IMG/VR virus record: IMGVR_UViG_3300017987_000171 | Span: 1 to 40,788 of that record | Length of the DNA: 40,788 nucleotides | Strand: one strand, 5' to 3' | From: a virus | Shown: piece by piece, positions 8,192-31,496 of the stretch | How positions within the stretch are numbered: the stretch's first letter is position 1 | How the letters are laid out: each line of letters begins with the position of its first letter | Made by a program: the position numbers and the translations under genes | Notes under the pieces: model-generated | Database searches by the model: none | What the model was told of the DNA's origin: nothing | Seen by the model: the letters and a program-made list of their open reading frames with translations, nothing else

Positions 8192-8211
8192 GATAACACC
8201 TACTTTCCAGT

Positions 8212-8406: not shown

Positions 8407-8439
8407 AGTCAATTTGTCTGAGAGCTACAACCACAGGGG

Positions 8440-13363: not shown

Positions 13364-16300
13364 TTACGGGCTCGTAATAGGTTCGTAGTACTCGACTTGG
13401 ATCTGCACCCAGCTAATGTCGGTGGTAGGCAGATCGAGCATGATGATCTGTCCCGCCGCTATCGTGGCATAGGTGATCGTATCTTCACTCGCCTCGGTAC
13501 TGGAACTGGTAGTGATCGCATCGATGGTCGGATTGACCCCGTTGATCGTTGTCGGGTCATCCCAGTTCTCTACGTTGATCGCATACGTGGAAGAGGCCGA
13601 GGTCTTAATGTGAATGTCGGTAACGACGACGCCGTGCGGGAACTCCGTGGCCTCAATCGCCTTGAGCGGCCAGTTGTCAATCTCCGCTTGCAGCAAGTCG
13701 GGGAAGGCCAACGTCGCGCTGAACGAGCGAATCAGCTTGCCCACCACCACATCGGTCGAGGCGGCCAATTCCGCGTGGGCGCTGCCATGTTGAATGACCA
13801 CCGAGCCGTCGGTGAAGTCCAGGTCGATATCGCCGTCGGTGTCCGGCGTCTGGCCCTGCGGCAGTTCCAGGTCCGCTCCGCCGAAGTCGTAGTCACCGGT
13901 GCCGCTATCACCGTCGTTCTTGAGGAAGTCATCGTCTACATCGATCTCGTCGTTCGCTGCATCCCAGGTGCAGCTCGTACCGCAGTTGATCGTGTCGATG
14001 TCATCGGCTTGAATCGAATCGTTGTTGTACGATCCGGCAGTGATCGCCCCGGCTACGGTGTCCGGCGTGAGGGTAATGGTCACGTCCGCGTCGGTGCCCG
14101 GCAGTACGTCGTCGGCCCCGCCGGAAAGGCCCGTCCCGGAGCACACAATATCCACCAATTTCGCCGCCGCCATGTAGTCGGTGCCCGCCACGGCGGCGCT
14201 GATATTGCCCCCGCCGTCGGCCTTGACGATCCCGGAGACCGCCCCTACGACGCTGTCGGTCTCGGTGCAGTTGAGCGTGCCGCCGGTGATACTGAGCTTG
14301 GTGCCTTCTATGTCCGTGCAGGTCGTTGCGTCGGTAACAGCGTCCACGCCTGCCCCGAAGAAGTCCACCGCCGCGTCGCCCGAGGTCGCGACGGTATTGT
14401 CCCCGGTATTCGTGCCGGACACCGAAACCGCGCCCTTGCCAATGGTCAGTGCAGAATCGTTGTCGGCATGGCCGGTCAGCGTGACCGTCCCGGTATTGAC
14501 CGTCAGGGCAGTGGTGAAGGTGGCGTTGGTGACAGAAGCAGCTTCGCCGGTACAGGTACCGGAGGAGCCGGTTACATCGCCGGTCACATTGCCCGTTAAG
14601 GCCCCGGCGAAGCCCGTAGTCGTGATAACGCCCGTGCTCGGCGTGTAGTAACACGTACCATCCGATTCCAGACCCAAATTGCCGCCGTCCAAGTCGCCGT
14701 CCGGGACAAAGACCAGGGGATTGTTCTCGGCCGTACTCTCATTGTCGGTAATCGTAACCGCCGTCGCTATGGCTGCGGTGCCCGTACAGGTACTCGACGT
14801 CAGGGTGTCGCTGATCCGGTCATCGGGGATTTCACCGGCGTCGAAGAAGTCGGTCGCGCTGTCTCCCGTTGCGGCATCCACGCCGGTCAGATTGCCGCCC
14901 CCGCCGCTGAACTCGGTAGCTGCAACCGTCCCGCTGGACGGGTTGTAGGTAAAATTGCCGTCGGACTCCAGGTTTGTGTTGTCGGTGGTGAACACGACCT
15001 CGTGCCCGTCGTCTGTGCTCTCGTCGTCAGCGACGGAGACCGTGCCGGCGGCCTCCCATGTCAGATTGCCCGAGCCATCGGTCTGCAACTGCTCTCCGGC
15101 ATCTCCATCGTCGGGCGGCAAGGTGAACGTCACATCTGCCGCCACGTCGTAGCCCTGAATAATAGTCTCGTGGGCATCGGCGCTCGACCCCTCGAAGTGC
15201 AGGGTGTTGCCAGTCCCATCGGCAGTGAAGGCCGCCCCACTGGCCGAGTCGCCGACCGCCGTAATGTCCCCCGCCCCGGCAGCCGACCAGCTCGTCACGC
15301 CCGAACCGTTCGTAGTCAGGACCTCCCCGTTGTCTCCATCGTCGGCCGGCAGGGTGAGCGTGACATTCCCCGTCATCGCCTGCGCCTGCAACGTGAGCGT
15401 ATTCGTGCCGTCGTCGGAGTCCTCGCCGATCACCACCGACCCGGCCGCCGCCTTGTTCCCACGGGCGTACACGACCGTATCGATCACGCCGGACCCCTGA
15501 TTCCACAGCACGGTCCCCGCACCGATATACTTATTACCATGCACATCGCAGTCCTGCGTCTCGTTGTATACGAGGAGATGGTCGTTCGAAGCTTCGATTA
15601 CATTGCCGCAGACGAGTCCGTTGCTGGCGACCTTCAGCGCGATACCGTTGTAGGCGTCGAGGATCAGGTTATTGGCGACGACCGCATCGTCACCGTCCAC
15701 CTGAATGGCGTACTGGTCGGCGCAGTTCTGCATTCTACAGACGTTGCCGGCAACCACTACGCCGGACAGCACGGCGGCGGAGCCCCCTTCATCGACCCGA
15801 ATCGCGGGATACGTCGTCTCGATGACATTATCCTTGACCTCGATACCGTAGCCGCCTGTATCCACATGGACCCCGTACCGCCCGGTCATGGTATTGCCGA
15901 TAATGTGAATGTCGTTCGGCTCGTCGCCGGCCGCATCATTGGTGCTCACCAGCACGCACTCGCCGCTGGCATCATTGGTCATTAGATTGCAGTCTACCAC
16001 CCAGATACGGTCGGTATCCGTCGTCGCGTCGGCATAGATTTGGATGGCCTCCTGCGTCCCCGAATCGCTCGTATCAATACTGCATTCGCTGATCCAAATG
16101 TTCGTAGAACGACTGATGCGGCAGCCGATGTACTGGCAACTCTCCAGGGTGTTGTTGTGAACGTGCACATCATCGCAGTCTCGATAGAAGTCGATGGCAG
16201 CGCCCTGATGCCCGCCGCCGGTATCCTTCCCGCAGTTGATGAAATGGTTGCCCGTCACTTGGCCGCGCACCACGCCACTCAGAAACACCCCGATAATCGC

Positions 16301-17548
16301 GTGGTCGGCGTCGCTGGGAGTGGCGTGGTCCATCGTGCAGTTCTGTACTCGTACGTCACTACACGTTGTAAAATGGAGGTCGCCGGAAGTCCATTCCGTG
16401 GGCGTACCTGGAACACTGCCTGTGAAGTAGCAGTCCTGAATCCAAATGTCGGAGGCGGTGTAGCAATCGATGTAATATTCAAAGAAGCCTTTGAAATGGC
16501 AATTCTGCACGCGAACGTGATTGCTCGTGTTGAAGTAGAGCCCTCGTTTGCTCGCCGGACTGCTCGGATTCCCCTGATTGCTCCCGTTCAGATCGAAGGT
16601 CAGGCCGCGCACGGAGATATAGTTTTCGCTGGTCGCCGTGAACAAATCGTCCGTCGCCGAGTCCTTCATCTTAATCGTACTGGCCCCAATCCCGTCGCCG
16701 AGTAGCGTGAGATTGCTCTGCAAGGTGAGCGCATCGGCGATGTACGTGCCTTCCGGGAAATAGATGGTACCGCCGCCGGCGGTGTTCGCCGCATCTATCG
16801 CCGCCTGAATCTCCGTACTACTCTCGCTCGTCCCCGTATCGTCGGCGTCGTAGTCCGTCTTGACATTGATGAACGGCCGGCCCAACTGGTCGCGGACGGT
16901 GCGCCCGTTCGCCAGCGTCGTGGTCGTGCCGTCGGTAACGTCGGTCCAGGCGGCGCTGAGGGACCCGATATCGACGCCCGTAGTCGCCAGCACCCAGGCC
17001 GAACCGTTCCAGTAGGTGTAGCCGACGTCACTGCCGAACCCGGCGGGCAGGTTCATATCCTCGGCGTAGTCCACTACCGGCGCCCGCAGCGCCCGGCCGA
17101 CCTGCTCGGCGAGGTCCTGGACCATCAGCGTCAGTCGGTCCACGGAATTGCCCACTTCCCGTTCGGTCGGGGCGCTCTGCGTTCCGTAGCTGTTGGTCTG
17201 CGTGCGCGGCGTGGCCCGCTGCAAGACGATCTGGTAGCCGCTGGCGAACGCGGTAACGGTCGTCACCGTCCCGCCCGGCCCGTCCCGGAAGTCGTTGTTG
17301 GTGGCGGCCACGGAATAGCCGTAGGTGCCCGAGGAGTTCTCCGTCAGGGTCCTCGGGTCGCCGTCGGAGTCCACCAGGATCACGACGAGGTCCTCGTGGG
17401 TCGAAGCGCTCGTATTCCAGATGTCCCAGGAAAAGGTGAAGCTCTTCGTCGAGCCGTTGCAGGAATAAATTGTGGGTTCATAAACAGTCTCTACCCCCGC
17501 CCCCCACACCGCCGCCGTCAGTAGTAACGCCAGTACAATCGTTTTCAT
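13364..17548 (-). CDS. Tail fibre/tailspike with T7-type N-terminus and beta-helix
   Basis: 1394 residues. It begins with a signal-peptide-like MKTIVLALLLTAAVWGAG. Residues about 20-165 resemble the T7 gp17 N-terminal domain that attaches fibres to the tail (ending in QDLAEQVGRALRAPVVD). Residues about 255-700 form a pectate-lyase-like right-handed beta-helix (GGGTIYFPEGTYI, many N-x-hydrophobic rungs). The C-terminal half has repeated GD-GE-L-T-GSG-W modules, common in fibre shafts. It probably recognises or degrades a surface polysaccharide. AAGGAG precedes the ATG, which overlaps the upstream stop (ATGA). Confidence 0.85.
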   Translation of the reverse strand: MKTIVLALLLTAAVWGAGVETVYEPTIYSCNGSTKSFTFSWDIWNTSASTHEDLVVILVDSDGDPRTLTENSSGTYGYSVAATNNDFRDGPGGTVTTVTAFASGYQIVLQRATPRTQTNSYGTQSAPTEREVGNSVDRLTLMVQDLAEQVGRALRAPVVDYAEDMNLPAGFGSDVGYTYWNGSAWVLATTGVDIGSLSAAWTDVTDGTTTTLANGRTVRDQLGRPFINVKTDYDADDTGTSESSTEIQAAIDAANTAGGGTIYFPEGTYIADALTLQSNLTLLGDGIGASTIKMKDSATDDLFTATSENYISVRGLTFDLNGSNQGNPSSPASKRGLYFNTSNHVRVQNCHFKGFFEYYIDCYTASDIWIQDCYFTGSVPGTPTEWTSGDLHFTTCSDVRVQNCTMDHATPSDADHAIIGVFLSGVVRGQVTGNHFINCGKDTGGGHQGAAIDFYRDCDDVHVHNNTLESCQYIGCRISRSTNIWISECSIDTSDSGTQEAIQIYADATTDTDRIWVVDCNLMTNDASGECVLVSTNDAAGDEPNDIHIIGNTMTGRYGVHVDTGGYGIEVKDNVIETTYPAIRVDEGGSAAVLSGVVVAGNVCRMQNCADQYAIQVDGDDAVVANNLILDAYNGIALKVASNGLVCGNVIEASNDHLLVYNETQDCDVHGNKYIGAGTVLWNQGSGVIDTVVYARGNKAAAGSVVIGEDSDDGTNTLTLQAQAMTGNVTLTLPADDGDNGEVLTTNGSGVTSWSAAGAGDITAVGDSASGAAFTADGTGNTLHFEGSSADAHETIIQGYDVAADVTFTLPPDDGDAGEQLQTDGSGNLTWEAAGTVSVADDESTDDGHEVVFTTDNTNLESDGNFTYNPSSGTVAATEFSGGGGNLTGVDAATGDSATDFFDAGEIPDDRISDTLTSSTCTGTAAIATAVTITDNESTAENNPLVFVPDGDLDGGNLGLESDGTCYYTPSTGVITTTGFAGALTGNVTGDVTGSSGTCTGEAASVTNATFTTALTVNTGTVTLTGHADNDSALTIGKGAVSVSGTNTGDNTVATSGDAAVDFFGAGVDAVTDATTCTDIEGTKLSITGGTLNCTETDSVVGAVSGIVKADGGGNISAAVAGTDYMAAAKLVDIVCSGTGLSGGADDVLPGTDADVTITLTPDTVAGAITAGSYNNDSIQADDIDTINCGTSCTWDAANDEIDVDDDFLKNDGDSGTGDYDFGGADLELPQGQTPDTDGDIDLDFTDGSVVIQHGSAHAELAASTDVVVGKLIRSFSATLAFPDLLQAEIDNWPLKAIEATEFPHGVVVTDIHIKTSASSTYAINVENWDDPTTINGVNPTIDAITTSSSTEASEDTITYATIAAGQIIMLDLPTTDISWVQIQVEYYEPITSP

Positions 17549-20500
17549 CGCGTACTCCTTGTCCCTTGCGTAGAGGCAGAACGTTTTTGCAGTTCAGCTC
17601 GCAACGTCGCCACCCGATCTTCATAACCCGTATGAGGGTGCCCCGCAGGATAGCGTCGCCCGTCACTGCGAGTGTACGGTTTCTTATATATGTGCGACGC
17701 GATAGCCTTGCGTAATTGCGCAAGCGTCATTGCATGAGGCGGGAAATGCTTCCAATTGAGGACCCTAACCGGATCAATAAGTAGCTTTTTCTCCCATTCT
17801 TGCCGCATATCGTTCGGCACAAAGTCGGGCTTGAGCACCCGTTTCACCTGCTCATTGTAATACTCTATTGCCCCCCAGGGATCTTTGTACTGATCCAATC
17901 GCCACGCCAATGCTTCGCGCTTCTCGCGAAGGTCCCAGCAGTCTCGCATAGCGGCACGTTTGCTCAAGGTATCCTCATCATAGGTCGGTCGCAATCCAAT
18001 CAACGCTTCCATTGCGGCGACTGAATCATCCAGGCCCTTGTTTCGACTCTGACTGAATACGCTTACGGAAATAGGGACCAGCCTGCGTAACTCATGTGCA
18101 AACAGTTCGGCCATTTTCTCTACGAACGGGTCGGTCGGACGATAAACCATGTCGCCCTTCCAATCGTAGATCGCCTTGCCCAGAAACAGCGATTGTGCAT
18201 CGTGAAGCATCTCAAAGCTGGTCGCCTTCATACCGCCAATCCGCTTGAGTGATTCCGTAACCGCTTTGTCCGGCCGACCGCGCAGGGTATTGAAGGCCAC
18301 GTTCCAGTAATCTTTATCGTAGCTGGCCAGATCGATCATAATCCGGTCGCCGTGTTGGTCTCTCTTGCCAGTATCGATCTTCAATAGGTCTCGTACATCA
18401 TCCAGATCCTCCGGTTTCTCAGGCGGCTTGCCAGTCAGGATTATCGTCCCAATGGTAGCAAGCGTCCCAGTCACTACCCACGAATTGACGATATTGCGTC
18501 GGGACCGCCCGGCGCTGTAACCCTCAGCCCCGCGTCCCCATTGGGTGGCGGCCTTGAACATCGTACGATAGTTGCCCTCCGCGTATCCCGGCGCCATGAA
18601 GATAAACCGTAAGGCGGTCGTTACCGTTCCGCTACGGCCAAAGAGGCGTTCGTTCATCATGCCATAGAAATTCTGCTGTTCTTTGATAAGCTCAATCTTC
18701 TCTACCGAGGTAAGCTCCCGGCCCTGCTTTCCGACCGCTTCGCCCACAGAATCAAGGTACTTACCGAACTTCACAGCCGGGATGTACTGCTCGAACATCC
18801 AGTTCACAAAACCAACGGGCACCTTAAACGGCGCCGCTACGCCTTTGAGGATTACCCTGGACCCTGCGTCGAGTTCGTGCATCATGCTCTTGACGGCGCG
18901 CTGGGCCTCGGACTCAATAGAGTATTGATGGCCGCCGCCGTGCTCAATATAGTCCCGGTACGCAGGACGCAGCGCGGGGTCTTTCGTCATGTTGGTAAAG
19001 AGTGCCTTGAAGCCCGTGCGCGACGTCCCTTTGTAGAAACCCAAGAAGCCGGTATCAGCGATAGATTGCTTGGCAATCTGCCAGGCGTGAAACGCGCTGC
19101 CGATGAACTTCAAACTGCGCAGGGCATTGTTCACCTTGCGCATCACGTTCAGGGCTTTGTTCTGCGTAATCTTATTGGTAGAAATCAGGCTGTTGATAAG
19201 CGCGGCCATTGTCGGTTCAACGCGCGCGTCGACAAAGGCCGGCTCCGGTCGCAACGGGTCCCCGATAAAGTCCCAATCGGCAGGCGCCTTGTCTGTTTCT
19301 TCAATATAGATACCCTTGCCCTCGGCCATCATGTAATCGTGCAACTGCTGCATGGCGGTCCGGCGCGCAATCGCCTGAAACTCCCTCCGCAGATTCTCTA
19401 CGGGGTTCTTCGTTCGCGCTTCCAGCCCGAAGGCTTTGGCGTCGGCGTAGGTGGGAAAGCTCTTGCGCTTGGTATAACGATCGGTGGTCCGCCAGTGTTT
19501 GAGGAAAGCACTGACTTTGCGTCCGCCCTTGTAGATGCCGTAGAAGTAGTCTTCGACCTTACCTACATCCTTCCCGGCGACTTCCTGGAGGTAGCGATAA
19601 TTGTCATCGGCGATTTCGTCCAGCGCGCGGCGAATCTTCGAGTCCTTTAGCGCCTTCGGCATTTTGGCAAAGGCTTCTCGTTGCAGCGCCCGCGCCTTGC
19701 CTTCAAGCCCGTGACCGCGCGAGAGCATCACCATTTCGAGAACGTTGTCCGGGTACTTTTGCAGTTCCTTCTCAAATTCACTTACGGTCGCATCGACGGC
19801 GTCCAGGCGGGCGTCGTTGAATTCCAGCGTTTCGGCCTCCGGCCGGTGCATAGCCTTAATCACTTCCGCATAGGGCGCACGGCCATGTTTTTCAATCACC
19901 AACCGGGCGGGCTCCAAACCTCGCAATACAGCGGCGTAGCCTGCCCGTACAGCGGAGACATCCAACATGCCCTTGTGGCGAGCCTCTTCTGAAACACCTG
20001 CGGGAGGCGGTGGGGCATATTCCTCCCTCGTCATCTCCCACGGCTCGCGGGCCTCTACAGCCCCCACCGATTCAGTCGTCGGTCGGCCTGTACGTAATGC
20101 CTCGCCACCTTCTTCGGCGGGCACTTCTTCTTGGCCTTCTTGCGCCCGGCGCTGCTCATGCACATCCGCATGAAGTTCGCCTGTTTCTGGGATACGCTCG
20201 GCATGTTCGGCCTCCTTTTCGGTAGTGGCTTCCCCAGGCCCCGCCGCGCCCGGCATTGTTTCTTGCGTCGCCGGGGTGATAATATCGTCTATTCGCGGCA
20301 GAACCAAAGACGGGTCATCGTGGACCGTAAGTGCGCGAAAGCCTCCAGCCCCGTCTGGGAAAAATCCGATGTCTAACTGGACTTGTGATTCAAAATTATG
20401 AGTTCCGGGGTGGTTCGCCGTAACCCAGCGCAGACTTCCGTCTTTGTTGAATGTTAGCGTAACCTCTATCGCCCCCCCTTCGCCTTCTTCTCCTTTTGGG

Positions 20501-21921
20501 ACTACTCCTCGGATTCTCTTGGTGATGTCGCCCGTCTTAGGGCTTATTTCCTCTGTCCATTCCCCAGGCCCCGCCTCCCCCGGCGCTTTTGCCTCAACGG
20601 TCGGCTCGGTGGGTGTGGCCGGGGGCGGGGTCTGTTTTTCTTCGGTCGGTTTGGCTTCGGGTTTGGTCTCGGCTTGCTGTGCGGCGACCGCTTTCTCCCG
20701 TTCGGCTACGGCCGCATCGTACGTCTCCTTTGTAGCGACCATCGGCATCTGCGGGATTTCGGGCTCTGCCTGAGCCGGGGTCGTCGCCTCGGCGATCTCT
20801 GTGGCGGCGTTGAAGACCAGCGACCCGCCGCCTAAGAAGAACCCCGCCCCGGCCCCCCCGGCGAAGGCCGTCGGGGAGCGCCGTGTTATCATGTCCTCAA
20901 CGTCGATATCTTTATCGTAGATGATCGTTGCGGCCCCGGCCCCGACCCATTCCTGGGCCACTTCTTCGAGTCCCTCCTTGATCGAGGCTTCAATATGCTG
21001 TTTCCCGAGCTTGCCGACCACGCGGGCAATCTTCTTCAAGGCGCGATCGCTGGCCTCGCCGGCGAACTCCTTGGCAACCGCCTTGGAAGCGCCCTTGCCC
21101 AGCTTCATAATGTGGCCGACCTGCGCTACTTCAATCACGCCGTTGACCGTTCCCACGACGTAGCGGGCCATCTGCGCCTCTTCCTCGGACGCGCCGTCGG
21201 CCAGGGCTTCGCGGTAGGCGTTATCGCCCTCCACCACGGCCCCGACGAGAAAGCCCCCGGCCGCCCCGCCGGTCGCCAAGGTCGCCCCGGTCGCCAGACC
21301 CATCATGGGCGCCGTTTTCGCGACGGTATTGGCCAGCCAGCCCCCGGCCCCGGCCCCTTTGCCAGGCTGAAAGAGCGGCGAACTGGAATAGTCGTAGAGC
21401 TGCTGGGCGTAATCGTCCCACGCCGCCCCGACCCGCTCCACCTTTGCGGCATCATAGTTGAACGGACCAAACCGCGTGAGGCCGTAGAACAACGGCGACC
21501 GGGCCACGCGGCGCAGTGCGCTGCCGAGCGTCCCTGCGGCGCTGCCCTCCACATTGGCGGCCCCCGATTCCAGTCCCATCCCGATTTCGTCCAGGACGCC
21601 GCGATACTGACGGCGCAGAATGAGCTGGTCCAGGGCGGCAGCCTTATCGCTCTGCGAGCCGGCCTGATCGTAGATGCCGAACAGATCCGGATAGCTCAGG
21701 CCCGTCTGGTCGTGATCCTTCACCATGTCGGCGGCCACTTCGCTGCGGGTCTTCGTCGGCAACGGCTCGACGCGCGGACCCATCGCCCCGAACCCAAACT
21801 GCGTCCGTCGCTTCTTCGGCTGGGCTGCGTCGGCGGCGGTGAACGCTCGCTCGATATCGCTGTTGACCGTATCGGCGGCGGCGAAGGCATCGTCAATCTG
21901 TTTGGTCGTAAAGGTCGCCAT
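17545..21921 (-). CDS. Large internal virion protein (gp16-like)
   Basis: 1458 residues, second only to the tail genes in size and in the position of T7 gp16 relative to gp14- and gp15-like genes. Hydrophobic Gly/Ala-rich segments near residues 195-235 and 345-365 could insert in membranes, a Pro/Glu-rich linker spans about 375-600, and the C-terminal half is helical, resembling large polyvalent protein-associated domains. I see no lytic transglycosylase signature at the N-terminus. Probable role: ejected with the DNA to form a channel through the cell envelope. Confidence 0.7.
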   Translation of the reverse strand: MATFTTKQIDDAFAAADTVNSDIERAFTAADAAQPKKRRTQFGFGAMGPRVEPLPTKTRSEVAADMVKDHDQTGLSYPDLFGIYDQAGSQSDKAAALDQLILRRQYRGVLDEIGMGLESGAANVEGSAAGTLGSALRRVARSPLFYGLTRFGPFNYDAAKVERVGAAWDDYAQQLYDYSSSPLFQPGKGAGAGGWLANTVAKTAPMMGLATGATLATGGAAGGFLVGAVVEGDNAYREALADGASEEEAQMARYVVGTVNGVIEVAQVGHIMKLGKGASKAVAKEFAGEASDRALKKIARVVGKLGKQHIEASIKEGLEEVAQEWVGAGAATIIYDKDIDVEDMITRRSPTAFAGGAGAGFFLGGGSLVFNAATEIAEATTPAQAEPEIPQMPMVATKETYDAAVAEREKAVAAQQAETKPEAKPTEEKQTPPPATPTEPTVEAKAPGEAGPGEWTEEISPKTGDITKRIRGVVPKGEEGEGGAIEVTLTFNKDGSLRWVTANHPGTHNFESQVQLDIGFFPDGAGGFRALTVHDDPSLVLPRIDDIITPATQETMPGAAGPGEATTEKEAEHAERIPETGELHADVHEQRRAQEGQEEVPAEEGGEALRTGRPTTESVGAVEAREPWEMTREEYAPPPPAGVSEEARHKGMLDVSAVRAGYAAVLRGLEPARLVIEKHGRAPYAEVIKAMHRPEAETLEFNDARLDAVDATVSEFEKELQKYPDNVLEMVMLSRGHGLEGKARALQREAFAKMPKALKDSKIRRALDEIADDNYRYLQEVAGKDVGKVEDYFYGIYKGGRKVSAFLKHWRTTDRYTKRKSFPTYADAKAFGLEARTKNPVENLRREFQAIARRTAMQQLHDYMMAEGKGIYIEETDKAPADWDFIGDPLRPEPAFVDARVEPTMAALINSLISTNKITQNKALNVMRKVNNALRSLKFIGSAFHAWQIAKQSIADTGFLGFYKGTSRTGFKALFTNMTKDPALRPAYRDYIEHGGGHQYSIESEAQRAVKSMMHELDAGSRVILKGVAAPFKVPVGFVNWMFEQYIPAVKFGKYLDSVGEAVGKQGRELTSVEKIELIKEQQNFYGMMNERLFGRSGTVTTALRFIFMAPGYAEGNYRTMFKAATQWGRGAEGYSAGRSRRNIVNSWVVTGTLATIGTIILTGKPPEKPEDLDDVRDLLKIDTGKRDQHGDRIMIDLASYDKDYWNVAFNTLRGRPDKAVTESLKRIGGMKATSFEMLHDAQSLFLGKAIYDWKGDMVYRPTDPFVEKMAELFAHELRRLVPISVSVFSQSRNKGLDDSVAAMEALIGLRPTYDEDTLSKRAAMRDCWDLREKREALAWRLDQYKDPWGAIEYYNEQVKRVLKPDFVPNDMRQEWEKKLLIDPVRVLNWKHFPPHAMTLAQLRKAIASHIYKKPYTRSDGRRYPAGHPHTGYEDRVATLRAELQKRSASTQGTRSTR

Positions 21922-21924
21922 GTC

Positions 21925-23472
21925 CTATCGCATGAAGCTCGTCGTCGGTACCTCGTTCATATCCATGCCTAACGGCACAGGCTTCTTATTGAGTTCTTCC
22001 AAGAACGCCTTTCGCTCGGCGTCGCTGTAACGGCGCACCGTCTGTTTCTGTTTGTCGCTGAGTCGGGGCCAGATCTTCTCGAACCCGGTGGGTATCGTTT
22101 CCGCATCTGTTTTCGGCTCCGCCGGGGCCTCCTCTTCGGGCTCCGCGTCCCACGTCTCGCGCACTTCCAGGATAGTGGCCCGGACTTCCCGCTCGTACGC
22201 CGCCCGGTCGATAGGCTTGTCCTTGGTGAAGTTTCGCTCGACCCAGACGTCCATACGCCGTCCCACTTCGCCGCGCATGGCAATCTGCTGCTCCACGGGG
22301 AACGGTTCGTAGGTATTGTCTGGCGGGGCTTGCGCCAAGATTTTGGTCGCGTCGGCAATGGCCGTACGCCGCAGGTCGGCAACGGCCTTATCGTAAACGT
22401 CCCCCCGCTGGCGAATGAAGTATTTGGCGTCGGTATCATCGAGGTACGGGCTCTCGCGCAGGCGGATTTTCTCGTACTCGTCCTCGGAGATATCGCCGCG
22501 CCGGTAGTGGTCCAGGGCGGTACTGATTCGGTCGTAGGCTTGCCGGCGTTTACTGATACCGGGTTTGGCCTTATCTTCCCAGACCGACATACAGGCATCG
22601 TAGGCCTCCTTGCCAATGCCGCCGGCGGCGTAGAGTTGCGCCAAATCAACGATGGAGTGCATCTGTCCCTGCTCGCCCCCGCTCGTGCGGTACGTAACCA
22701 TATCGGCATAGGCTTGCCGGCCCGCATCGAGGACCGCTTGCTTTCTCTCCCGCTCGGCCTCTTTCTCCTGCGCGTCTTCGGCGTCGGCAATCACCTTGCG
22801 CACCCTATCGGCCAGGCCCGCCGTTGAGAACATATCGGGCGTTAGGGAGGCGAGTGCCATATCCGGGTCCTTCTCCGCCAACTTGTAAAGGAACTCGGAC
22901 TTGGCCCAATCCAGGAACTCGGCCTGCTCGTCTTTCGGCCACCACTTCAAGTTATGTGCAATCGCCTCCTTGAGGCCCTCCTCATCGTGCGTATGACACA
23001 GGGAGAGAATCTGCTGACGAGACTGGTCCTGGCGATAACCACGCTCGACGGCCTGCAAATTGGTGGTATAGGCATAGAGATTTTTCTCGCGCATCTGATC
23101 GCTGTACGACATGAATTCGTCCCGTACCGATTCCGGCAACTGTTCCATTGCCTTCTGGACCGTCTGGTCGTGGGCGATTCCATACTGCCCGGCGCCCCAC
23201 TCAAAATCCTCGTTCGTGAGTTCCGGGTCGTTCAGGCGATCACGCATCCATGTCGCCATTGCAACATGGGTCGCAACCTTGGTATCACTGAGCTTCTGGC
23301 CGTCGCGCTCGTCCTTCTCCCGCTCGAGCCGTTTCTGCCAGTCGGCCCCCAGCGCCGCAATCGCGGCCCCCATATCGGCCACGCCGCGCCACACTCGACC
23401 TGAACCCGACGGCGGCGGCACGGCTTGACTGCCTTGAGGCACTCTCTTGGAATATGGTATGTAAATCGGCAT
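21925..23472 (-). CDS. Internal virion protein (gp15-like)
   Basis: 515 residues, overwhelmingly helical and charged, with an N-terminal MPIYIPYSKRVPQG and long helices (WQKRLEREKDERDGQKL). Its position between a gp14-like and a gp16-like gene and its helical character match T7-type internal core protein C. Sequence identity to T7 is not evident by eye. Confidence 0.65.
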   Translation of the reverse strand: MPIYIPYSKRVPQGSQAVPPPSGSGRVWRGVADMGAAIAALGADWQKRLEREKDERDGQKLSDTKVATHVAMATWMRDRLNDPELTNEDFEWGAGQYGIAHDQTVQKAMEQLPESVRDEFMSYSDQMREKNLYAYTTNLQAVERGYRQDQSRQQILSLCHTHDEEGLKEAIAHNLKWWPKDEQAEFLDWAKSEFLYKLAEKDPDMALASLTPDMFSTAGLADRVRKVIADAEDAQEKEAERERKQAVLDAGRQAYADMVTYRTSGGEQGQMHSIVDLAQLYAAGGIGKEAYDACMSVWEDKAKPGISKRRQAYDRISTALDHYRRGDISEDEYEKIRLRESPYLDDTDAKYFIRQRGDVYDKAVADLRRTAIADATKILAQAPPDNTYEPFPVEQQIAMRGEVGRRMDVWVERNFTKDKPIDRAAYEREVRATILEVRETWDAEPEEEAPAEPKTDAETIPTGFEKIWPRLSDKQKQTVRRYSDAERKAFLEELNKKPVPLGMDMNEVPTTSFMR

Positions 23473-23477
23473 CGGCT

Positions 23478-23939
23478 CTACTCGAATACGTCTGAACTTG
23501 CGATACTGTGACCGGCGCTGATACCGCCAGCCACCATCGCCAATCTGCCCTGCTTCTTAGCGCTCTTCGCTTGCTTCTTGGCGTAATAGGCACGGATACG
23601 GTCTGCGTTGACCTGCGTCTTGCGATCCCGCCAGGTCATAAGTTTGTCCAGCGTCATTTCCCGCAGGCTGGTACGAAGCAAATCGGTAGCGCTGCCGCGC
23701 ATCTCCACGCCGCTGCGTGCCAGTTCGTTCGTGATCGAGCCCATCGCACGGTTGATCCCGAGCGAGGTGCGCCACGATTCGTAGGCCGCCCGTTGGGCCG
23801 TCTCCCTGGCCCGAGCCCAGTACGATGCCGCGTGCGCCTTGGCATCGGACGCGGCGGCGTCATGCGAGCGCTTGGCGGCGTACCCTTCGAGTCCCTTGCC
23901 GCCGACCTGCATCAACATTGCTATCATTGCTGGATTCAT
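23478..23939 (-). CDS. Internal virion protein (gp14-like)
   Basis: 153 residues. Starts MNPAMIAMLMQVGGKGL, followed by a long helix with Ala and charged residues and a Gly-rich hydrophobic end. Size, hydrophobic ends and position beside gp15- and gp16-like genes fit internal protein B of T7-type phages, which inserts in the outer membrane during ejection. Confidence 0.6.
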   Translation of the reverse strand: MNPAMIAMLMQVGGKGLEGYAAKRSHDAAASDAKAHAASYWARARETAQRAAYESWRTSLGINRAMGSITNELARSGVEMRGSATDLLRTSLREMTLDKLMTWRDRKTQVNADRIRAYYAKKQAKSAKKQGRLAMVAGGISAGHSIASSDVFE

Positions 23940-26642
23940 TCATTCCACCTCGTATATGGGTGCGAGCACGCGCACGGTAAAGGGCCACGGCTCATCCACC
24001 ACCAGGCGATATTCCGCCTCGCGCCGCCAGCCGCCGAACGGGGGCAAAACGACCGAATCGGTAACAAGTTCCGTCCCGCTGGTCCAGGCCAGGCCCGAAC
24101 GGGTGTTGGACCAGTCGATTTCGTAGAGATTGTCACTATTGACGCCGAACGACCCGCCCATCGAGCAATACACGTTCAGGTACAGGCCGGTAATCTTCTT
24201 GGACCGACTCATCGTCGTGCCGGTATAGAACGTGAGGTCCGAGGGCTCCGGGGCCAGGATGGAGGTAAAGGGCAAGCCGACGGCCGTCTGGTTGGCGTAG
24301 TCATCGGCCGTTACCGAGCCACTCGCGACCAGCTCGTCACTCATTACGCCGTCGTTGGTATAGACAGTGACGGATTCGCCCTCCAGGTGCGACAGGCTGA
24401 ACGTGTTCTCTACGATCTGTACGGTCCCGCCCGACGTGTAGGCGGTGTAGCCGCTGGTATCCCAATCGGCATCGCCCGTACTGTCGAGACTGAAGGTCTT
24501 GGACCCTTCCGTCGCATCGTCCACAGTGAAGATACGATTGTTGATCTCCGTCATGCCCGAGACGGACGTAATGTAGACGTTGTCCCCGTCGTTCAGGCCG
24601 GAAGGCCAGGACGATACGGTCACTACGCCGGGGTCGGCCTGGGTAATCCCACTGATATCGACCGCCGCCCCGCCGTCGAAGGTCGTACCGGAGTCCACGT
24701 AGTAACAGTCGGAAATGTCGGCGTCCAGATCCAGATCGTCGAAGTATTCGACCATGTACGTATCGGTGCCGTCGATCTCGCGATTGACCACCGTCCAGAC
24801 CTGGTCGGGCCCGCTGGCCTGGGGGATAACGGCTACCGAGGTATAGTCGCCGTCGGTCACTTGCCGAGACCAGGCGACAATCTCGTACTCCGGCCGGTAG
24901 TACATGGTCGCCAGTTCGCCGTTACCGCACACGCACCAAAGGGTCGGATAGGGCGTCTCCTGAAAGGCCATTTGCACGACGCCGTCTTCCAGAACGTGCT
25001 CGGCCAACTGCGTCAGATCGGCCCCGATATAGGCGCGTTGGGTATCGTTGTAGAAGCACTCGAAGACGTGCGTACCCGTCCGGTCCAGGCCGAGGAACAT
25101 ATTGGACGCCTGCACCGGCACATGGGCCATGCAGCTCTGCGCGTAGGCCGATTGCACGACCGGCGGGGCCGTCGGCTGGTACGCCTGCCCGATCTCGTAG
25201 ACCTTGCTCAAGGTCCCCGCCAGTAGCGTATTGCGATGGTCGCCGAGCAGCCATTGGATGTAGTCCTGGCGGGACTCGCTCATTGTGTACCAGAAGGCGT
25301 CGTCGTCCTCCATACCCGGCCGGAAGCTCTCCAGGTTCTCGACAGAGGTGAAGTACAGATCGAGATCCTTGGCGTAGACCATGCGTCCGGAGTGCATTGT
25401 GACCGACGTCGGATAGCCTACCGCACTGCCCCAGGCCCCCAGTCGCCAGTATTTCGTGATACACTTCCAATTGGAGTCGTAATCCGTCGCGGGCAGTTCG
25501 TCCTTGACCGTTGCCGAGACTACCTTGGCGCTCGTATAGGCGGTAATCTCGGCCATGCCCGGATACGACGCCTCCTGCCGCTCCATCGTCACTCTCAAAG
25601 TGCCGGACGTGTAGTCGGTACAGGCCAGACGGATCAGTACGTTTTCGCCCCAGCTTGCGACGTCGCTGTATTCGAGGTTCCAGGACGTTGCCGTTGTCGT
25701 TTCCGTCGTATAATCCGATTCGATCTCGCCGGCGGCCCACGTATAGGGTGAGGTGTAATCGTCGCTATCGAAGTCCAGTAAGACCTGCAAGGTGACTTGC
25801 CCTTTGAACGTCGTGGACTGGGCGGTAACGGCGAACCCCTGGCCTTCCCCCAACATGATCGGCTTACTGACATCTCCGCTCTCGTCGAAGACGGCCGTTT
25901 CGCGGTACGCCTTCCACGTCGTCAATTCGCTGTACGGCCAGGCTACTTCCTCCCGCCATTCTCTCACATTGCCCCAGCCGGTGAGACGCGAGTCCATAAG
26001 CACCTGGAGGGCGATCAAGCGGCCGACGTCGGTCGCTGCGAACGTATCGGCGCTGGCGGTAATGGTGATAGAGCCGCTAATGTTACTGGCGGTCATCGTC
26101 GTGCCCGTTTCGTCCTCGTCTAAGAACGGCCCGTCGGTAAAGTCCACGTCGGCAATGGTCCAGGATGAATGCCCGGCACGTGTGAGCTTCTGCGGCGGGT
26201 GATCCTCCTGTACCAGGTACATGACGTCGGCGAACTGGTACGCCTGGATCTCGAACAGATCGGCGGTTGTGAATACGGTGGCAATCTCATAGGCGCTGTC
26301 CCCGCTCACAATCTGGGCGCCGCTGCGATAGAAGCGCAGTTTCAGATTGGTGAACTCGAGGATATAGGCGTCCGTCTCCGAGTAAATGAAGGGCATCAGG
26401 CGCGCCGCCGCCGTACCCCGCGCGCCGGCAACGTAGACACTGCCCGGCCGCCGCGTCGCCGCGCCGGTCCCGACCACCAACATATTCTCCAACGTCTGAC
26501 AGCCGGTGCGATACTGCGGCAGATCGAAGCGTCCGTGCAGCAACGGGGACAGTTCCCCGCCGACAAAGCCCGTGTGCGGCACGCTCAAGGTACTGCCCGC
26601 CGCCGTCGCGGCCAGGCAGAGAATGATAACGATTGTTTTCAT
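23940..26642 (-). CDS. Tail tubular protein B-like (gp12) with signal-like N-terminus
   Basis: 900 residues. Right after MKTIVIILCLAATAAGS comes the usual start of this family: GFVGGELSPLLHGRFDLPQY, then a TLENMLV segment and TRRPGSVYVAG. The rest is beta-rich. T7 gp12 forms the tail nozzle. The hydrophobic N-terminal extension looks like a Sec signal peptide; no internal Met would skip it without losing conserved sequence. The ATG at 26642 overlaps the upstream stop (ATGA), favouring this start over an open frame reaching 26888. Confidence 0.8.
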   Translation of the reverse strand: MKTIVIILCLAATAAGSTLSVPHTGFVGGELSPLLHGRFDLPQYRTGCQTLENMLVVGTGAATRRPGSVYVAGARGTAAARLMPFIYSETDAYILEFTNLKLRFYRSGAQIVSGDSAYEIATVFTTADLFEIQAYQFADVMYLVQEDHPPQKLTRAGHSSWTIADVDFTDGPFLDEDETGTTMTASNISGSITITASADTFAATDVGRLIALQVLMDSRLTGWGNVREWREEVAWPYSELTTWKAYRETAVFDESGDVSKPIMLGEGQGFAVTAQSTTFKGQVTLQVLLDFDSDDYTSPYTWAAGEIESDYTTETTTATSWNLEYSDVASWGENVLIRLACTDYTSGTLRVTMERQEASYPGMAEITAYTSAKVVSATVKDELPATDYDSNWKCITKYWRLGAWGSAVGYPTSVTMHSGRMVYAKDLDLYFTSVENLESFRPGMEDDDAFWYTMSESRQDYIQWLLGDHRNTLLAGTLSKVYEIGQAYQPTAPPVVQSAYAQSCMAHVPVQASNMFLGLDRTGTHVFECFYNDTQRAYIGADLTQLAEHVLEDGVVQMAFQETPYPTLWCVCGNGELATMYYRPEYEIVAWSRQVTDGDYTSVAVIPQASGPDQVWTVVNREIDGTDTYMVEYFDDLDLDADISDCYYVDSGTTFDGGAAVDISGITQADPGVVTVSSWPSGLNDGDNVYITSVSGMTEINNRIFTVDDATEGSKTFSLDSTGDADWDTSGYTAYTSGGTVQIVENTFSLSHLEGESVTVYTNDGVMSDELVASGSVTADDYANQTAVGLPFTSILAPEPSDLTFYTGTTMSRSKKITGLYLNVYCSMGGSFGVNSDNLYEIDWSNTRSGLAWTSGTELVTDSVVLPPFGGWRREAEYRLVVDEPWPFTVRVLAPIYEVE

Positions 26643-26845
26643 AGTCCCAGCATCTTTCCGTTGCCCACCGACGCCGGACCGAACAGGCCGCCGGTAATAT
26701 TGAGACTGCTCCGCGTCGTCTGCCGGCCCATGCGCCGCTTGCGTCGTTCCTGGGCGGCGAGAATCTCGGCGGACCCGTAACCGGGCATCTCCGGGGACTG
26801 GATACTGCCCCTCATCAAACTCTGCACCAAACTCAAAAAGGCCAT
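26639..26845 (-). CDS. Small hypothetical tail-region protein
   Basis: 68 residues (MAFLSLVQSLMRGSIQSPEM start), with a basic middle (RRKRRMGRQTTRSS). It lies between the gp11-like and gp12-like genes, overlapping one by TAATG and the other by ATGA. Such tiny linker genes occur at this position in podovirus tails; function unknown. Confidence 0.6.
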   Translation of the reverse strand: MAFLSLVQSLMRGSIQSPEMPGYGSAEILAAQERRKRRMGRQTTRSSLNITGGLFGPASVGNGKMLGL

Positions 26846-27867
26846 TACGGTAGCTCCACTGTAGGCTTCGCGTCGCCGGACGCGGCAATATCGATCCACG
26901 GTTGCGGGGTGATCCGTTTGCGTTTCCGCTGACCCGTATACCGGCGGGCCTGGCCCAGTTGGAAATCGTAGAGCTTCAATAGCTCTAACCGGAACTTCGT
27001 TTTGCCCATCGCCCCGGCCAATAGGAACGCCAAGTAGCCGGCAATCACCAGCTTGAGGCCGTGGGAGAACTTGCTGGCGTCGCCGATCCGCCGCACGTAC
27101 TTGAGGTAGACGTCGGCAGCCTCCTGATCGGTAACGAACTGGTCGCCCGCCTCGTTGTACCAGTATTCCGTTTCTTCCGGATCAATTCCGTTGTCCGAGG
27201 TCCGCAGATCGCGGTCCACGACCGCAATGATCGCCACGCAATCGGAAGGAATGTTGTAGACGTACAGTTCGGCGTCCTCGTTGCCGGGGAAATCGTCGTA
27301 GGATGACAGTGCGGTAATCTCGTCGTACTTGACCGCTTCCGGCGGGCGCAGGTCCAGTAAGGCATGTTCCGTCGCGGTGCGAAAGAGCCTCTCGCACCAA
27401 ACGGCCGTCGGGTTGCCCCCATCGCTGATATCGGAAATCGCCGATTGCGACGCGTCCGTCGCCCCGCCCAGCATGGCCAGGGCCATATTGGCAATCTCCG
27501 TCTCGTACGCCCCGTAGCTTACCAGCGACAGCACGCCCGAAGCGCGTGGGATGACCTGGTCGGATTCGGGCTTGTGCAGGTCGCCGCTCTCCTCCCAGCT
27601 CAAGCGCCATTCGCTCTCGTAATCGGGCCAGGCCCCGGCGGCGATGGACAGCGAGTACAGACCGTCGTCAACGTGCGTAGCGGTCCCCGCCGAGCCCTTG
27701 GTCGAACTCCAGGCCGATGTCGAGGCGATCCAGTATTTGCCCGCCTGGTCCCCGGCGGTGCAGCGCAGGTAGAAGTACACATCCCCGGTGGTAATGGGAC
27801 TGTGGTCGGCCCGCGCGATAACGGTGGCGTAGACCGTATTGGCTTGATCCGGAATCACGCACTGCAT
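26845..27867 (-). CDS. Tail tubular protein A-like (gp11) with extra N-terminal domain
   Basis: 340 residues. Residues about 115-310 match the gp11-type adaptor: EIANMALAMLGG, a variable middle with WCERLFRTATEHALLDL, and a helical end. The first 110 residues look like a separate beta-sandwich domain (VYATVIARAD, GDVYFYLRC, DGLYSLSI), not part of the minimal family. Gp11-type proteins form the ring joining portal and nozzle. Confidence 0.75.
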   Translation of the reverse strand: MQCVIPDQANTVYATVIARADHSPITTGDVYFYLRCTAGDQAGKYWIASTSAWSSTKGSAGTATHVDDGLYSLSIAAGAWPDYESEWRLSWEESGDLHKPESDQVIPRASGVLSLVSYGAYETEIANMALAMLGGATDASQSAISDISDGGNPTAVWCERLFRTATEHALLDLRPPEAVKYDEITALSSYDDFPGNEDAELYVYNIPSDCVAIIAVVDRDLRTSDNGIDPEETEYWYNEAGDQFVTDQEAADVYLKYVRRIGDASKFSHGLKLVIAGYLAFLLAGAMGKTKFRLELLKLYDFQLGQARRYTGQRKRKRITPQPWIDIAASGDAKPTVELP

Positions 27868-27871
27868 CAGA

Positions 27872-28237: not shown

Positions 28238-28256
28238 GAGTCCAATCCTAAAGGGC

Positions 28257-28299
28257 GCAGTCCGAGACGGGCGGAGACAGGATGACCCGCCCGGACTGC
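28257..28299. other. Nested hairpin between lipoprotein and structural gene
   Basis: Outer arms GCAGTCCG/CGGACTGC and inner CGGGCGG/CCGCCCG. There is no T-run on the minus-strand side, so it is more likely an mRNA processing or stability element than a strong terminator. Confidence 0.45.
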
Positions 28300-28313
28300 A
28301 CCGGAAAAACAAC

Positions 28314-28577
28314 CTATTTCTGTTCCGGCAGCTCTTCCGTCGGGATGAACTGCCCTTCGATGACCGGAGGGGCCTGCATCTCCAGCTTGAGCCGGGCATT
28401 GTCTCGGCGCAGTTGGAGGATGTCGTGTGTCAGTTGCTCTTCGGTCTTAATCACCTTCATCTGACTGATGCGCGCCTTCGTAGCGCGCAGGGCCTCTTGC
28501 ATGGGGTCATTGGAGTGCAGCGTCATCGTGCAGCCCGACAAGAAGATGACCCCTATCAACGTAGCAATCTTTCGCAT
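28314..28577 (-). CDS. Small lipoprotein with coiled coil
   Basis: 87 residues. Signal MRKIATLIGVIFLSGC gives a clear lipobox (FLSGC), so Cys16 should be lipidated after signal peptidase II cleavage. The following Thr-Met does not give the inner-membrane Asp+2 signal. The mature part is a charged coiled coil (EEQLTHDILQLRRDNARLKL) with a Pro-rich end. In a phage this could be an outer spanin, but no inner spanin or endolysin is next to it. Confidence 0.7.
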   Translation of the reverse strand: MRKIATLIGVIFLSGCTMTLHSNDPMQEALRATKARISQMKVIKTEEQLTHDILQLRRDNARLKLEMQAPPVIEGQFIPTEELPEQK

Positions 28578-28589
28578 TACACAAGCTCC

Positions 28590-31496
28590 TTACTGTCCGG
28601 CATGGCTATAAACGTAGAGGTAAGCGTTCTCGGCGGTGCCAGTAATGCTGATCTTGATGGCGCCGATCTTATCGGTATTGGCCGCTGTATGCGTCGTATT
28701 GGCCGTGTATACAGCGGCGTCCGCATTGCCGAACGTGAACAGGTAGTCGGGCACGTCCCCGCCGGAATCGGCGTTGAAGTGGATCATCGACGTGGTGTCG
28801 TCGATCGGCCCGGCGTCCGCGTGGACCTGATACTCCAGGTTCAAGACGCGCAGCTTGCAGTTCACCAGTTCCGGCGCGGCGGCGGCGTAGATACCGACGT
28901 CCGCTCCGGCGAGGATGGCGTCGCTCCCGTCGGTCGGCGTACCGGCAGTGACGTTGAGCCAGGAACCGAAGGCATAGACCTTCCCGTCCGTATTGCCGGT
29001 GATATTGCCCTCGACGTACGCCCCGACGCCTTCGGAGGCGGTCGCCCCGGCGATGGAGCCGGACAGCGTCGTGCCCTTGGCGCCGTCGGCGACGGCGGTA
29101 GCCGTGATGGTATTGCCGGTGAGACCGGACAGGGCGACGGCCCCGGTCGCAGCGCTCGCGGTAATGCCCCCAGCCCCGGCCGTCAGCCCAATCGCATCGG
29201 TGCCCGTACCCGTGCTGTTGAGTAGGATGCTGGAATTGGTGGCGCCGGTCAGACCGATGGTGAAGTCGTCGCTGTCGCCGTTCGTCGCCAGGGAGATGTT
29301 ACTGGCGGCGTTGGAGCCGTCGATGGAGAAGGCGCCCCCGGCCAGGATATCGAGAGTTGTCGCCGCGTCGATGTCCAGGGCGGCCCCGGCGTTGATGTCG
29401 AGGTCGGACGTGCCCGACTGGATGATGGTCGCCGAGGTCGTGCCCGTCGAACCAATAGTGGTGGAGATACCATCGACGGTAACGGTGTCCTTGGCACTGC
29501 CGACGGCAATGGTATCGGCGGTCGTGTTGTTGGTGCCGACGTTGATCGCGTTGCCGTGGGTGTTCGTCCCGATATTGATAATCGAGCCGGCGCTACCCCC
29601 GTTGAGCGTGACGTCGTCGTTCGAACTCATTGTAAGATCGCCGTCCCCGGCGGTCACGACGATGGTCGCACCGAGAATCGTCGGCGTATCCTTAGCACTG
29701 CCGATGTTGATGTCATCCAGCGCGGTGTCGTCCGTAGCGATATTCAGGACGTTGCCGTGGGTATTGGTCATCAGGTTCAGGATTGAACCGGCGGACCCGC
29801 CGTTCAAGCTCACGTCATCGGTCGCACTCATGGCCAGATTGTCCGTCCCGGCCGTGATAACAATGGCCGAGCCGAGAATCGTGGGAGTGTCCTTGGCGCT
29901 ACCAATGTTGATGTCGTCGAGCGCGGTGTCATCCGTAGCGATATTCAGGACGTTGCCGTGGGTGTTGGTGCCGATGGCGATAATAGAGCCGGCGGAGCCG
30001 CCGTTGAGTGAAACGTCATCGACGGCGGATAGGTCGAGGTTGCCCGTTCCGGCCTTGATGGTCGTCGAGCCAGCCCCCGCGCCGTCGCCCAGGGTAATCG
30101 TCTTGGCCCCGGTCCCGCCGTCGCCGATGGCAATGGCCAGTGCGCCGGTGCCGCCGATTGTCACCGTGCCGGTCGAGGTGCCCGTATTGATATTGGTGGG
30201 GTCGTCGGCCGAGACGTTGACGTTGACGCCGTTGGAGCCGCCCTTGATCGTGGTCGTACTCGACGTGGTACTGCTGCCGAGGGCCACGGTTTTGATGCCG
30301 GCCCCATTGCCGATGTCCACGGCTTGCGTCCCGGTGCCACCGATGGTAATGGTGCCCGTGGTCGTACCGCCCCCGATACTGGTGGTGGACGTGGTCGCGC
30401 TGTCGTTGATCGACACCGTTCCCGTCATCGTCTCGCCGCCGGTACAGGTAAAGAGCCCGTCCGAGGTGATCGTACCGAGCCCGGCCGCGTTGCCGGCGGT
30501 GCTCACCGTCCAATCGCTGGACGAAATGGCCGTAGTGCCACTGGTATTGCCCAAGACGGTGGCCGGAGTAGCGGAATTGGTAACGACCAGGGCCCCCACG
30601 TAGCCGGCGCCGACGTCGTACCCGTAGACGCCCACGCTCTGAGCGGTGGTCGTCGAGGATTTAACGCCTTTGCCGTGGGCCATCGTAATATCACCGGACA
30701 GGCCGAGGCTGGAAAAGCCGCTCATGGCCCCGTCGCTACTAATGTCCCAGGCCGAGGAGCCGACGGCGACACTGGCGGAGTTGTTGCCGAGCGTTACCGT
30801 ACCGGAATAGGACCCGGTGCCGATATTGGTGGCGTCCGAGCCGCTGGCGTTGATCGTCTGCGTCCCGGTCGCCGTCAGATCGGTTACGCCCGTAACGGCG
30901 CCGGCGGTCGTAACGTTCAGGCCCGTTGAAGTGACGGCTAACGAGGTTGTCGCAGACCCCAGGACCAGGGCCGGCGTGGTGTCGTGGTTCGTCCAGCGAA
31001 AAGCGTCTACGTAGGCAGAATCACGACGCACGCCGATGCTGCTGGTATGGGCGGCGGTTGTGGAGCTGTAGATGTCCACCCCGTTCGCCAGGGTCACGTC
31101 GCTGCTGATTGCACCGCCGGTGAACGTGCCGGAGCCGGAAATGCAACTCGACACGGTGCCGCTGGAGTCCTTGAAGTAGAGGGTGGTAGTCCCGCTGTCG
31201 TCGGCGACGTAGAGGCGGCCGTGATTGGCCGCCGGACTGCCCGGAGCGCTCATCTCGGCAAACTGGATATAGGAATCCGTATCGAGCAGATTGCCGAAGG
31301 CACTGGTGCCCTCCAGCAAACCCTCGACCTCGTTACCGAACAGATAGACCGGGTCCAACGTCGTACTCATCGAGCCGATGAACGAGACGTAGTCAGGACT
31401 GACAATATTGCTGGCACTGTTGGTCATAGCCGCCGGGGCGCGCGGAGCGCCCCACAGCATCGCCAGCAGTACCGCAAAGAAGATGCGTTTCTTCAT
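28590..31496 (-). CDS. Large repeat-rich fibre/adhesin-like protein with signal peptide
   Basis: 968 residues. Signal peptide MKKRIFFAVLLAMLWGAPRA with an Ala-rich cleavage region; AAAGGAG upstream supports this start. The rest is almost pure Gly/Thr/Ser/Asn beta repeats, including three tandem units of about 67 residues sharing DDVSLNGGSAGS, NTHGNVLNIATDD and NIGSAKDTPTILG. This looks like an extended fibre shaft, with a less repetitive end (about the last 150 residues) that may be the receptor-binding tip. Located between head and tail-tube genes. Confidence 0.7.
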   Translation of the reverse strand: MKKRIFFAVLLAMLWGAPRAPAAMTNSASNIVSPDYVSFIGSMSTTLDPVYLFGNEVEGLLEGTSAFGNLLDTDSYIQFAEMSAPGSPAANHGRLYVADDSGTTTLYFKDSSGTVSSCISGSGTFTGGAISSDVTLANGVDIYSSTTAAHTSSIGVRRDSAYVDAFRWTNHDTTPALVLGSATTSLAVTSTGLNVTTAGAVTGVTDLTATGTQTINASGSDATNIGTGSYSGTVTLGNNSASVAVGSSAWDISSDGAMSGFSSLGLSGDITMAHGKGVKSSTTTAQSVGVYGYDVGAGYVGALVVTNSATPATVLGNTSGTTAISSSDWTVSTAGNAAGLGTITSDGLFTCTGGETMTGTVSINDSATTSTTSIGGGTTTGTITIGGTGTQAVDIGNGAGIKTVALGSSTTSSTTTIKGGSNGVNVNVSADDPTNINTGTSTGTVTIGGTGALAIAIGDGGTGAKTITLGDGAGAGSTTIKAGTGNLDLSAVDDVSLNGGSAGSIIAIGTNTHGNVLNIATDDTALDDINIGSAKDTPTILGSAIVITAGTDNLAMSATDDVSLNGGSAGSILNLMTNTHGNVLNIATDDTALDDINIGSAKDTPTILGATIVVTAGDGDLTMSSNDDVTLNGGSAGSIINIGTNTHGNAINVGTNNTTADTIAVGSAKDTVTVDGISTTIGSTGTTSATIIQSGTSDLDINAGAALDIDAATTLDILAGGAFSIDGSNAASNISLATNGDSDDFTIGLTGATNSSILLNSTGTGTDAIGLTAGAGGITASAATGAVALSGLTGNTITATAVADGAKGTTLSGSIAGATASEGVGAYVEGNITGNTDGKVYAFGSWLNVTAGTPTDGSDAILAGADVGIYAAAAPELVNCKLRVLNLEYQVHADAGPIDDTTSMIHFNADSGGDVPDYLFTFGNADAAVYTANTTHTAANTDKIGAIKISITGTAENAYLYVYSHAGQ
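29470..30060. repeat. Three approximately 200-bp tandem repeats in the fibre gene
   Basis: Three tandem units encode the 67-residue blocks above. The two units nearest 29690-30010 are almost identical at the DNA level, and the third is more diverged. Confidence 0.7.

Follow-up and report, generated by a model that had tools for sequence, protein, structure and literature searches.

Phage T7 proteins lack signal peptides, and both their synthesis and their assembly are cytoplasmic; tailed phages in general are understood to assemble in the cytoplasm. Virion proteins with Sec signal peptides are known from the filamentous phages, whose pIII and pVIII carry them as is proposed here for tail proteins of the window, the whole stretch of 40788 bases from a virus record that we analysed; filamentous phages have single-stranded DNA, are assembled in the membrane and are extruded without lysis. 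The tail nozzle of the window shares the whole fold of phrog_376 and of the nozzle of Cobetia phage Carin1 (PDB 8ck1), a fold found also in T7 gp12, together with the gene position after the adaptor, whereas the Carin1 nozzle, like 183 of the 192 nozzle N-termini judged here, lacks the leader with which the window nozzle begins. The N-terminal domain of the window tail fibre is gp17-like and belongs to phrog_1640, which we take to be linked to the N-terminal domain of the T7 gp17 fibre. Phage vir555 (BK063671, host written as Methanomicrobiales) has the same podovirus gene order as the window and bears signal peptides on five late genes, of which one lies between the capsid and adaptor genes and the other four stand where the late region ends, but its nozzle and gp17-like fibre are leaderless, unlike those of the window. 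For two Bacteroides phages, two and one signal peptides have been counted, with no tail protein named in the available part of that paper (PMC5723332); the literature titles found, seen in part, included none on exported nozzles or fibres in tailed phages, which is not proof of absence. The window proteins belong to known tail families and carry one feature absent from most of their members.

Leaders on three tail genes of the window

The late genes of the window lie on the minus strand, and three of them, encoding the tail fibre, the nozzle and a fibre-like protein of 968 residues, open with a leader that is present in the sequence as written (Table 1). The first-pass annotation had described basic-hydrophobic-small leaders on these genes, and they proved real, standing before complete, ordinary tail proteins. 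Leaders were called by a rule written here, which looks for a basic n-region, a hydrophobic core and small residues at -3 and -1, and by this rule all three have the marks of Sec signals cut by signal peptidase I. Both rule and cut-offs were set after examples had been seen: the n-region was lengthened after the rule had missed the nozzle of locus L192, and low-scoring hits such as MPRTTLALTSFV were taken as false, giving a cut-off of 11. The narrow rule with cut-off 12 served for co-directional genes, the wide rule with cut-off 11 for the 192 nozzles, and the wide rule with cut-off 12 for the count of genes between capsid and adaptor. Among family controls the rule flagged 0 of 90 portal, 0 of 134 capsid, 0 of 173 adaptor and 0 of 4 gp15 proteins (all four of the last from leader phages), with cut-offs 11 and 12 in agreement, and the leader flags on the window tail proteins exceed chance.

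Table 1. Features of the window with their positions, strand and basis of assignment.
Feature	Position	Strand	Basis
LamG-domain protein	11559..12503	-	Laminin_G_3 E 8.9e-24
241-aa protein, signal peptide or anchor, cut predicted between IYA and A	12503..13228	-	rule score 14.94, CAGGAGA upstream
Tail fibre, gp17-like N-terminal domain and beta-helix, 1394 aa	13364..17548	-	phrog_1640, phrog_2234, Beta_helix
Fibre leader MKTIVLALLLTAAVWG	17501..17548	-	rule score 11.91
Two large genes in gp16/gp15 place (17545-21921, 21925-23472), leaderless	17545..23472	-	gene order only; no signal
Internal virion protein (gp14-like), leaderless	23478..23939	-	phrog_418 E 1.5e-13; no signal
Tail nozzle (gp12-like, phrog_376), 900 aa	23940..26642	-	phrog_376 E 3.7e-147; PDB 8ck1 Tail Nozzle
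Nozzle leader MKTIVIILCLAATAAG	26595..26642	-	rule score 13.71; ATGA overlap with ORF 26639-26899
Adaptor (gp11-like, phrog_394), leaderless	26845..27867	-	phrog_394 E 7.2e-16, residues 122-325; no signal
87-aa lipoprotein, lipobox LSGC	28314..28577	-	sequence
968-residue repeat-rich, fibre-like protein	28590..31496	-	between capsid and adaptor genes
Leader of 968-residue protein, cut predicted between APA and AMTNSAS	31431..31496	-	rule score 14.47
Major capsid protein, leaderless	32026..33036	-	phrog_212, Pfam GP7; no signal
Portal, leaderless	34761..36518	-	phrog_332 (named head-tail adaptor there) E 3.2e-47; no signal

The nozzle ORF listed at 23940-26888 opens with TTG and merely extends the coding frame; translation more likely begins with the ATG at 26642, which overlaps the stop codon of a small, differently framed ORF. 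The phrog_376 match covers the whole nozzle (residues 102-981 of the 982-residue ORF) and begins directly after the leader, so that the window protein exceeds the family start (such as M-A-x-V) by about 16 residues; an internal start codon lies near the predicted mature start, STLSVPH. A profile of 17 nozzles (alignment A5) matched PDB 8ck1 at E 1.5e-202, and the predicted structure (mean pLDDT 74.2) matched 8ck1_A best (TM-score 0.71 by query length, E 1.0e-56), with other podovirus nozzles including T7 gp12 ranked behind it. Residues 1-16 of the model fall below 50 and include a helix at 2-13 that precedes the fold.

In the fibre, phrog_1640 matches from residue 27 (E 5.5e-11), alongside phrog_2234 (E 2.9e-21) and the Pfam Beta_helix. 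Its ATG at 17548 shares an ATGA with the stop codon of the preceding gene and is preceded by AAGGAG, and no start codon occurs at codons 15-40, that is, past the leader and into the family domain. The fibre leader is short and its cut site weak; the score passes cut-off 11 and misses the cut-off of 12 used for the neighbouring-gene and capsid-adaptor counts. The start of the 968-residue gene at 31496 has AAAGGAG upstream and no ATGA; its product has no PHROG or Pfam match and none among phage records at E 0.01. A homologue is encoded by L009, a diverged relative whose capsid protein is 63% identical to that of the window over the alignment. There the leader MKRIAISLILLLCLPLVSMA is followed by AITNSAS, and the two proteins keep the signal peptide, equally typical in both, and the mature start (A-[MI]-T-N-S-A-S) while differing in the hydrophobic core. 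Both genes contain an internal ATG near the predicted cut, in neither case with a ribosome site.

The first-pass annotation had argued for these starts from ATGA overlaps and AGGAG sites. The overlap is there at the fibre and the nozzle and not at the 968-residue gene, and AGGAG is found for the fibre and the 968-residue protein only, not for the nozzle; the claim that the starts are real and the leaders of Sec type is supported, as is, from the sequences, the reading of all three as genuine Sec signal peptides. Two neighbours that it had named hold up as well: the lipoprotein has its lipobox before the cysteine, and the anchored protein, for which no PHROG family was found, scores as a signal peptide from the start at 13228. 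The LamG protein ends in a hydrophobic stretch followed by basic residues, and its N-terminus is basic-hydrophobic yet unflagged by the rule, with Pro at the likely +1.

Recurrence in nozzles, fibres and other late genes of relatives

Nozzle loci were drawn from viral and genome contigs, as the best 80 of 592 and the best 80 of 585 relatives plus smaller scans. At cut-off 11 the rule flagged nine of the 192 N-termini, two of which (L127 and L193) were rejected by eye as artefacts: the flag came from an upstream start, and a family-typical ATG follows deeper in the gene. The seven that remain are those of the window (as L008), L010, L026, L157, L171, L192 and L217, a proportion that is not a natural frequency, the sample being biased, capped and rich in near copies. 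The record behind L002 and L008 (IMG/VR 3300029267_003268) is 99.4-100% identical to the window in long matches and therefore no independent case. Five cultured or named relatives, once aligned, start at or near M-A-x-V, 9-16 residues ahead of a conserved G-E motif. The comparison with homologues suggested in the first-pass annotation thus has a divided outcome: most nozzle relatives lack the leader, which fits its premise that tail proteins are normally cytoplasmic, and several distant ones have it. The mature nozzle N-termini show a weak shift in charge, with a mean net of -0.56 (n = 9, including the two artefacts) against -0.08 (n = 183).

In the nozzles of L026 (TTG) and L217 (GTG), the leader start is the sole start codon in the open frame upstream of the conserved motif, and it is preceded by GGAGG and AGGAG respectively. 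That the leaders are artefacts of misassigned starts, the real proteins beginning further downstream, is very improbable in view of these two loci, the recurrence in distant relatives and the ATGA overlaps and ribosome sites at leader starts. The idea draws on the listed nozzle ORF, which begins 82 codons upstream of the proposed ATG, on the origin of the sequences in metagenome contigs without annotation, and on the internal ATGs of the 968-residue gene and its L009 homologue, before which no ribosome site was seen.

An internal ATG near the family start occurs also in the L010 and L157 nozzles, and leaderless forms are possible for these two, the 968-residue protein and the L009 homologue. 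It is conceivable, though unlikely, that the proteins form two pools, one exported for an envelope task such as blocking superinfection and one kept in the cytoplasm for the virion through inefficient export or internal starts. The start codons inside the L010, L157 and window nozzles and the 968-residue gene and its homologue would permit this, and several further genes of the window besides the three tail genes look exported. Internal starts are nevertheless lacking before the conserved motif in L026 and L217 and at codons 15-40 of the window fibre, an envelope task would be strange for a nozzle, and nozzle leaders go together with signal peptides on other late genes.

Trees of 54 and 40 nozzle rows both need three changes of state to account for the leader rows, which are united in 0% of bootstrap trees in either case; the starred branches alone force two changes in the larger tree and one in the smaller. 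Because so few changes are forced, and because a single gain with two losses would also make three, several separate origins of the nozzle leaders are likely but not proven. In L171, on a contig assigned to Dependentiae, leaders stand on the nozzle and on two fibre-end genes; the host assignments of this contig and of L157 may be binning errors.

A second leader-bearing gp17-like fibre was found on contig G209, where the nozzle has a leader too. Its N-terminal domain is 40% identical to that of the window fibre (E 2e-22) and is preceded by a different hydrophobic leader. Its residue 37 corresponds to position 2 of phrog_1640; a cut behind residue 36, as predicted, would yield TVTETSTKV, which aligns with the MTVSSTTTKV-like starts of leaderless fibres. 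This fibre is one of two fibre-end genes of G209 that follow a large gene in the gp16 place and whose leaders were judged by eye, the rule having flagged none of the 67 gp17-like N-termini in a set that excludes the window's own; the other 66 start within five codons of the family start. The leaders might alternatively serve assembly, as hydrophobic peptides binding an adjacent virion protein, or be propeptides that a phage enzyme cuts in the cytoplasm, and the likeness between the fibre and nozzle leaders of the window (both MKTIV...) is in keeping with such a role. Across phages, however, leaders vary greatly in sequence and length and keep their basic, hydrophobic and small-residue parts, where a binding peptide should keep its sequence, and an adjoining gene has a lipobox; we consider this explanation improbable. 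The phage-specific cutting route raised in the first-pass annotation found no support here, the cut sites resembling ordinary signal peptidase I sites.

Other co-directional genes, the nozzle being left out, were flagged by the narrow rule in 11 of 54 cases in five leader loci (among them L157, which has no gene besides the nozzle) compared with 13 of 1370 elsewhere (Fisher p 1.4e-10, the genes of one phage not being independent). Nine of these 13 are the genes of L147, L156 and L158 and six genes of L143. The L156 gene, tried as a further case, was rejected on its match to D-alanyl-D-alanine carboxypeptidases, and those of L147 and L158 solely on N-termini similar to that of L156. In L143, whose nozzle is leaderless, signal-peptide genes form a cluster at 19013-21712, near the end of the late region. 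A signal-peptide gene between the capsid and adaptor genes is present in 5/5 leader phages and 5/147 others (p 4e-7), in a count where L010, L192 and L217 are sisters on the 40-row tree and L197 and L199 give identical genes. One of the five others is vir555 (L172), in which five late genes score at least 12 as signal peptides; since its nozzle and fibre are leaderless, export of outer genes would reach wider than export of the nozzle.

Further late genes bear signal peptides in individual phages. In the proteins L010:4602, L192:4030 and L217:13034 the signal peptide is followed by a common mature motif, K/R-P-T-A-D/N-W. In G210 the rule flags the nozzle, an 875-residue gene without a named family and two genes between the capsid and adaptor genes, and in G209 (45,905 bases, with the contig start recurring at the end) the nozzle, the capsid-adaptor gene and three genes before the nozzle, some of the G209 leaders having long n-regions. 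A dispersed repeat like AACCACGAAGGACACGAAG occurs in many places in G209 (L192, L214, L215), some of them within n-regions of signal-peptide genes. A repeat of this contig was found once each in 4/149 and 2/148 genomes of two phyla, and therefore gives no host. Over residues 49-535, the L026 protein at 19630 has homologues in other phages, cyanophage virion proteins among them, and the one in S-T4 is without a leader.

Proposed export and the probable site of tail assembly

The leaders, their start sites, the family identity of the proteins, the recurrence and the restriction to outer genes can all be read directly from the DNA. The boundary falls between adaptor and nozzle, the head, adaptor and core proteins tested being leaderless throughout. 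In the account that we favour, the nozzle, the tail fibre and the fibre-like 968-residue protein would cross the inner membrane via Sec late in infection, and signal peptidase I would trim each leader to leave nearly the same N-terminus as in leaderless relatives. Such export and cleavage is, from what is known of signal peptides, quite probable. The cytoplasm would be where heads form, take up their DNA and receive the adaptor and internal proteins; we place them there because no head, adaptor or internal protein was found with a leader. With heads in the cytoplasm and tail parts in the periplasm, the two could therefore meet only at lysis, once the phage has opened the inner membrane, a step that we infer and hold as tentative, somewhat short of an even chance. 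That infectious particles would arise only once this membrane opens, lysis thereby timing final assembly, is distinctly tentative too. Taken whole, with Sec export and trimming, cytoplasmic heads and joining at lysis as the likeliest last step, we give the account about even chances. No lysis gene was recognized among the proteins scanned.

Of the three meanings offered in the first-pass annotation, export linked to assembly fits best, though unproven; for the nozzle, which forms a core part of the tail conduit, display on the cell surface is not favoured. A version in which uncut leaders hold nozzle and fibres at the inner membrane, with heads docking there, could appeal to the short hydrophobic stretches of the window leaders, to the lipobox in one neighbouring gene and the C-terminal hydrophobic stretch of another protein, and to the long n-regions of some G209 leaders. 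We think such tethering unlikely: most predicted cut sites obey the -3/-1 rule and cutting restores nearly the family N-terminus, and an N-terminal signal anchor would leave the body of the protein in the periplasm anyway. In the available part of the T7 account, moreover, the 45 N-terminal residues of the nozzle supply platform strands (PMC6702177); an uncut hydrophobic leader should obstruct these. An idea involving disulphides was dropped, the cysteine content showing no consistent difference between exported and non-exported proteins.

The main difficulty for assembly in two compartments is the retention of DNA. As far as the available part of the same paper goes, the portal valve of T7 is opened again by the adaptor, and DNA is kept in chiefly by the nozzle (PMC6702177). 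Heads lacking a nozzle should therefore leak unless closed otherwise. We propose that either the heads close by other means or the adaptor, too, is a late addition. In the window adaptor about 120 residues precede the family domain, which may or may not bear on the matter. Nozzle export would not be required in every such phage, as vir555 has a leaderless nozzle despite its other signal peptides, and the trees allow two-compartment assembly to have arisen more than once. If the account is true, phages that export nozzle and fibres would break the rule of cytoplasmic assembly in tailed phages, raise the question of how nozzle-less heads keep their DNA, and offer a testable tie between lysis and final assembly, and a signal peptide would no longer count against assigning a structural function to a phage gene.

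Other genes of the window

The large gene at 17545-21921 has a weak match to phrog_2206, virion RNA polymerase (E 1.2e-4). The ORF at 37094-39778 (894 aa), which we take from position and recall to be terminase-like, contains an inserted intein-like stretch, with a weak LAGLIDADG match below the curated cut-off. Twin-arginine-like N-termini occur at 6611-7075 of the window (RRRDLLKG) and at 2077-2466 of L009 (RRRFLKYL), the proteins possibly being exported by Tat. A search for the host through the window tRNA gene gave matches in 37/199 genomes of the phylum of L160, at 78% identity at best, and nothing in six single genomes. A phage integrase gene at 7250-8407 adjoins a tRNA-Met gene, which suggests a temperate phage. 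The 180-aa protein at 118-660 has a signal peptide score of 13.5 and a C-terminal Phe, as in some outer-membrane barrels, and the protein at 8979-9785 consists of GGTVQKVY-like repeats, a region in which the otherwise near-identical record G001 matches the window only in fragments.
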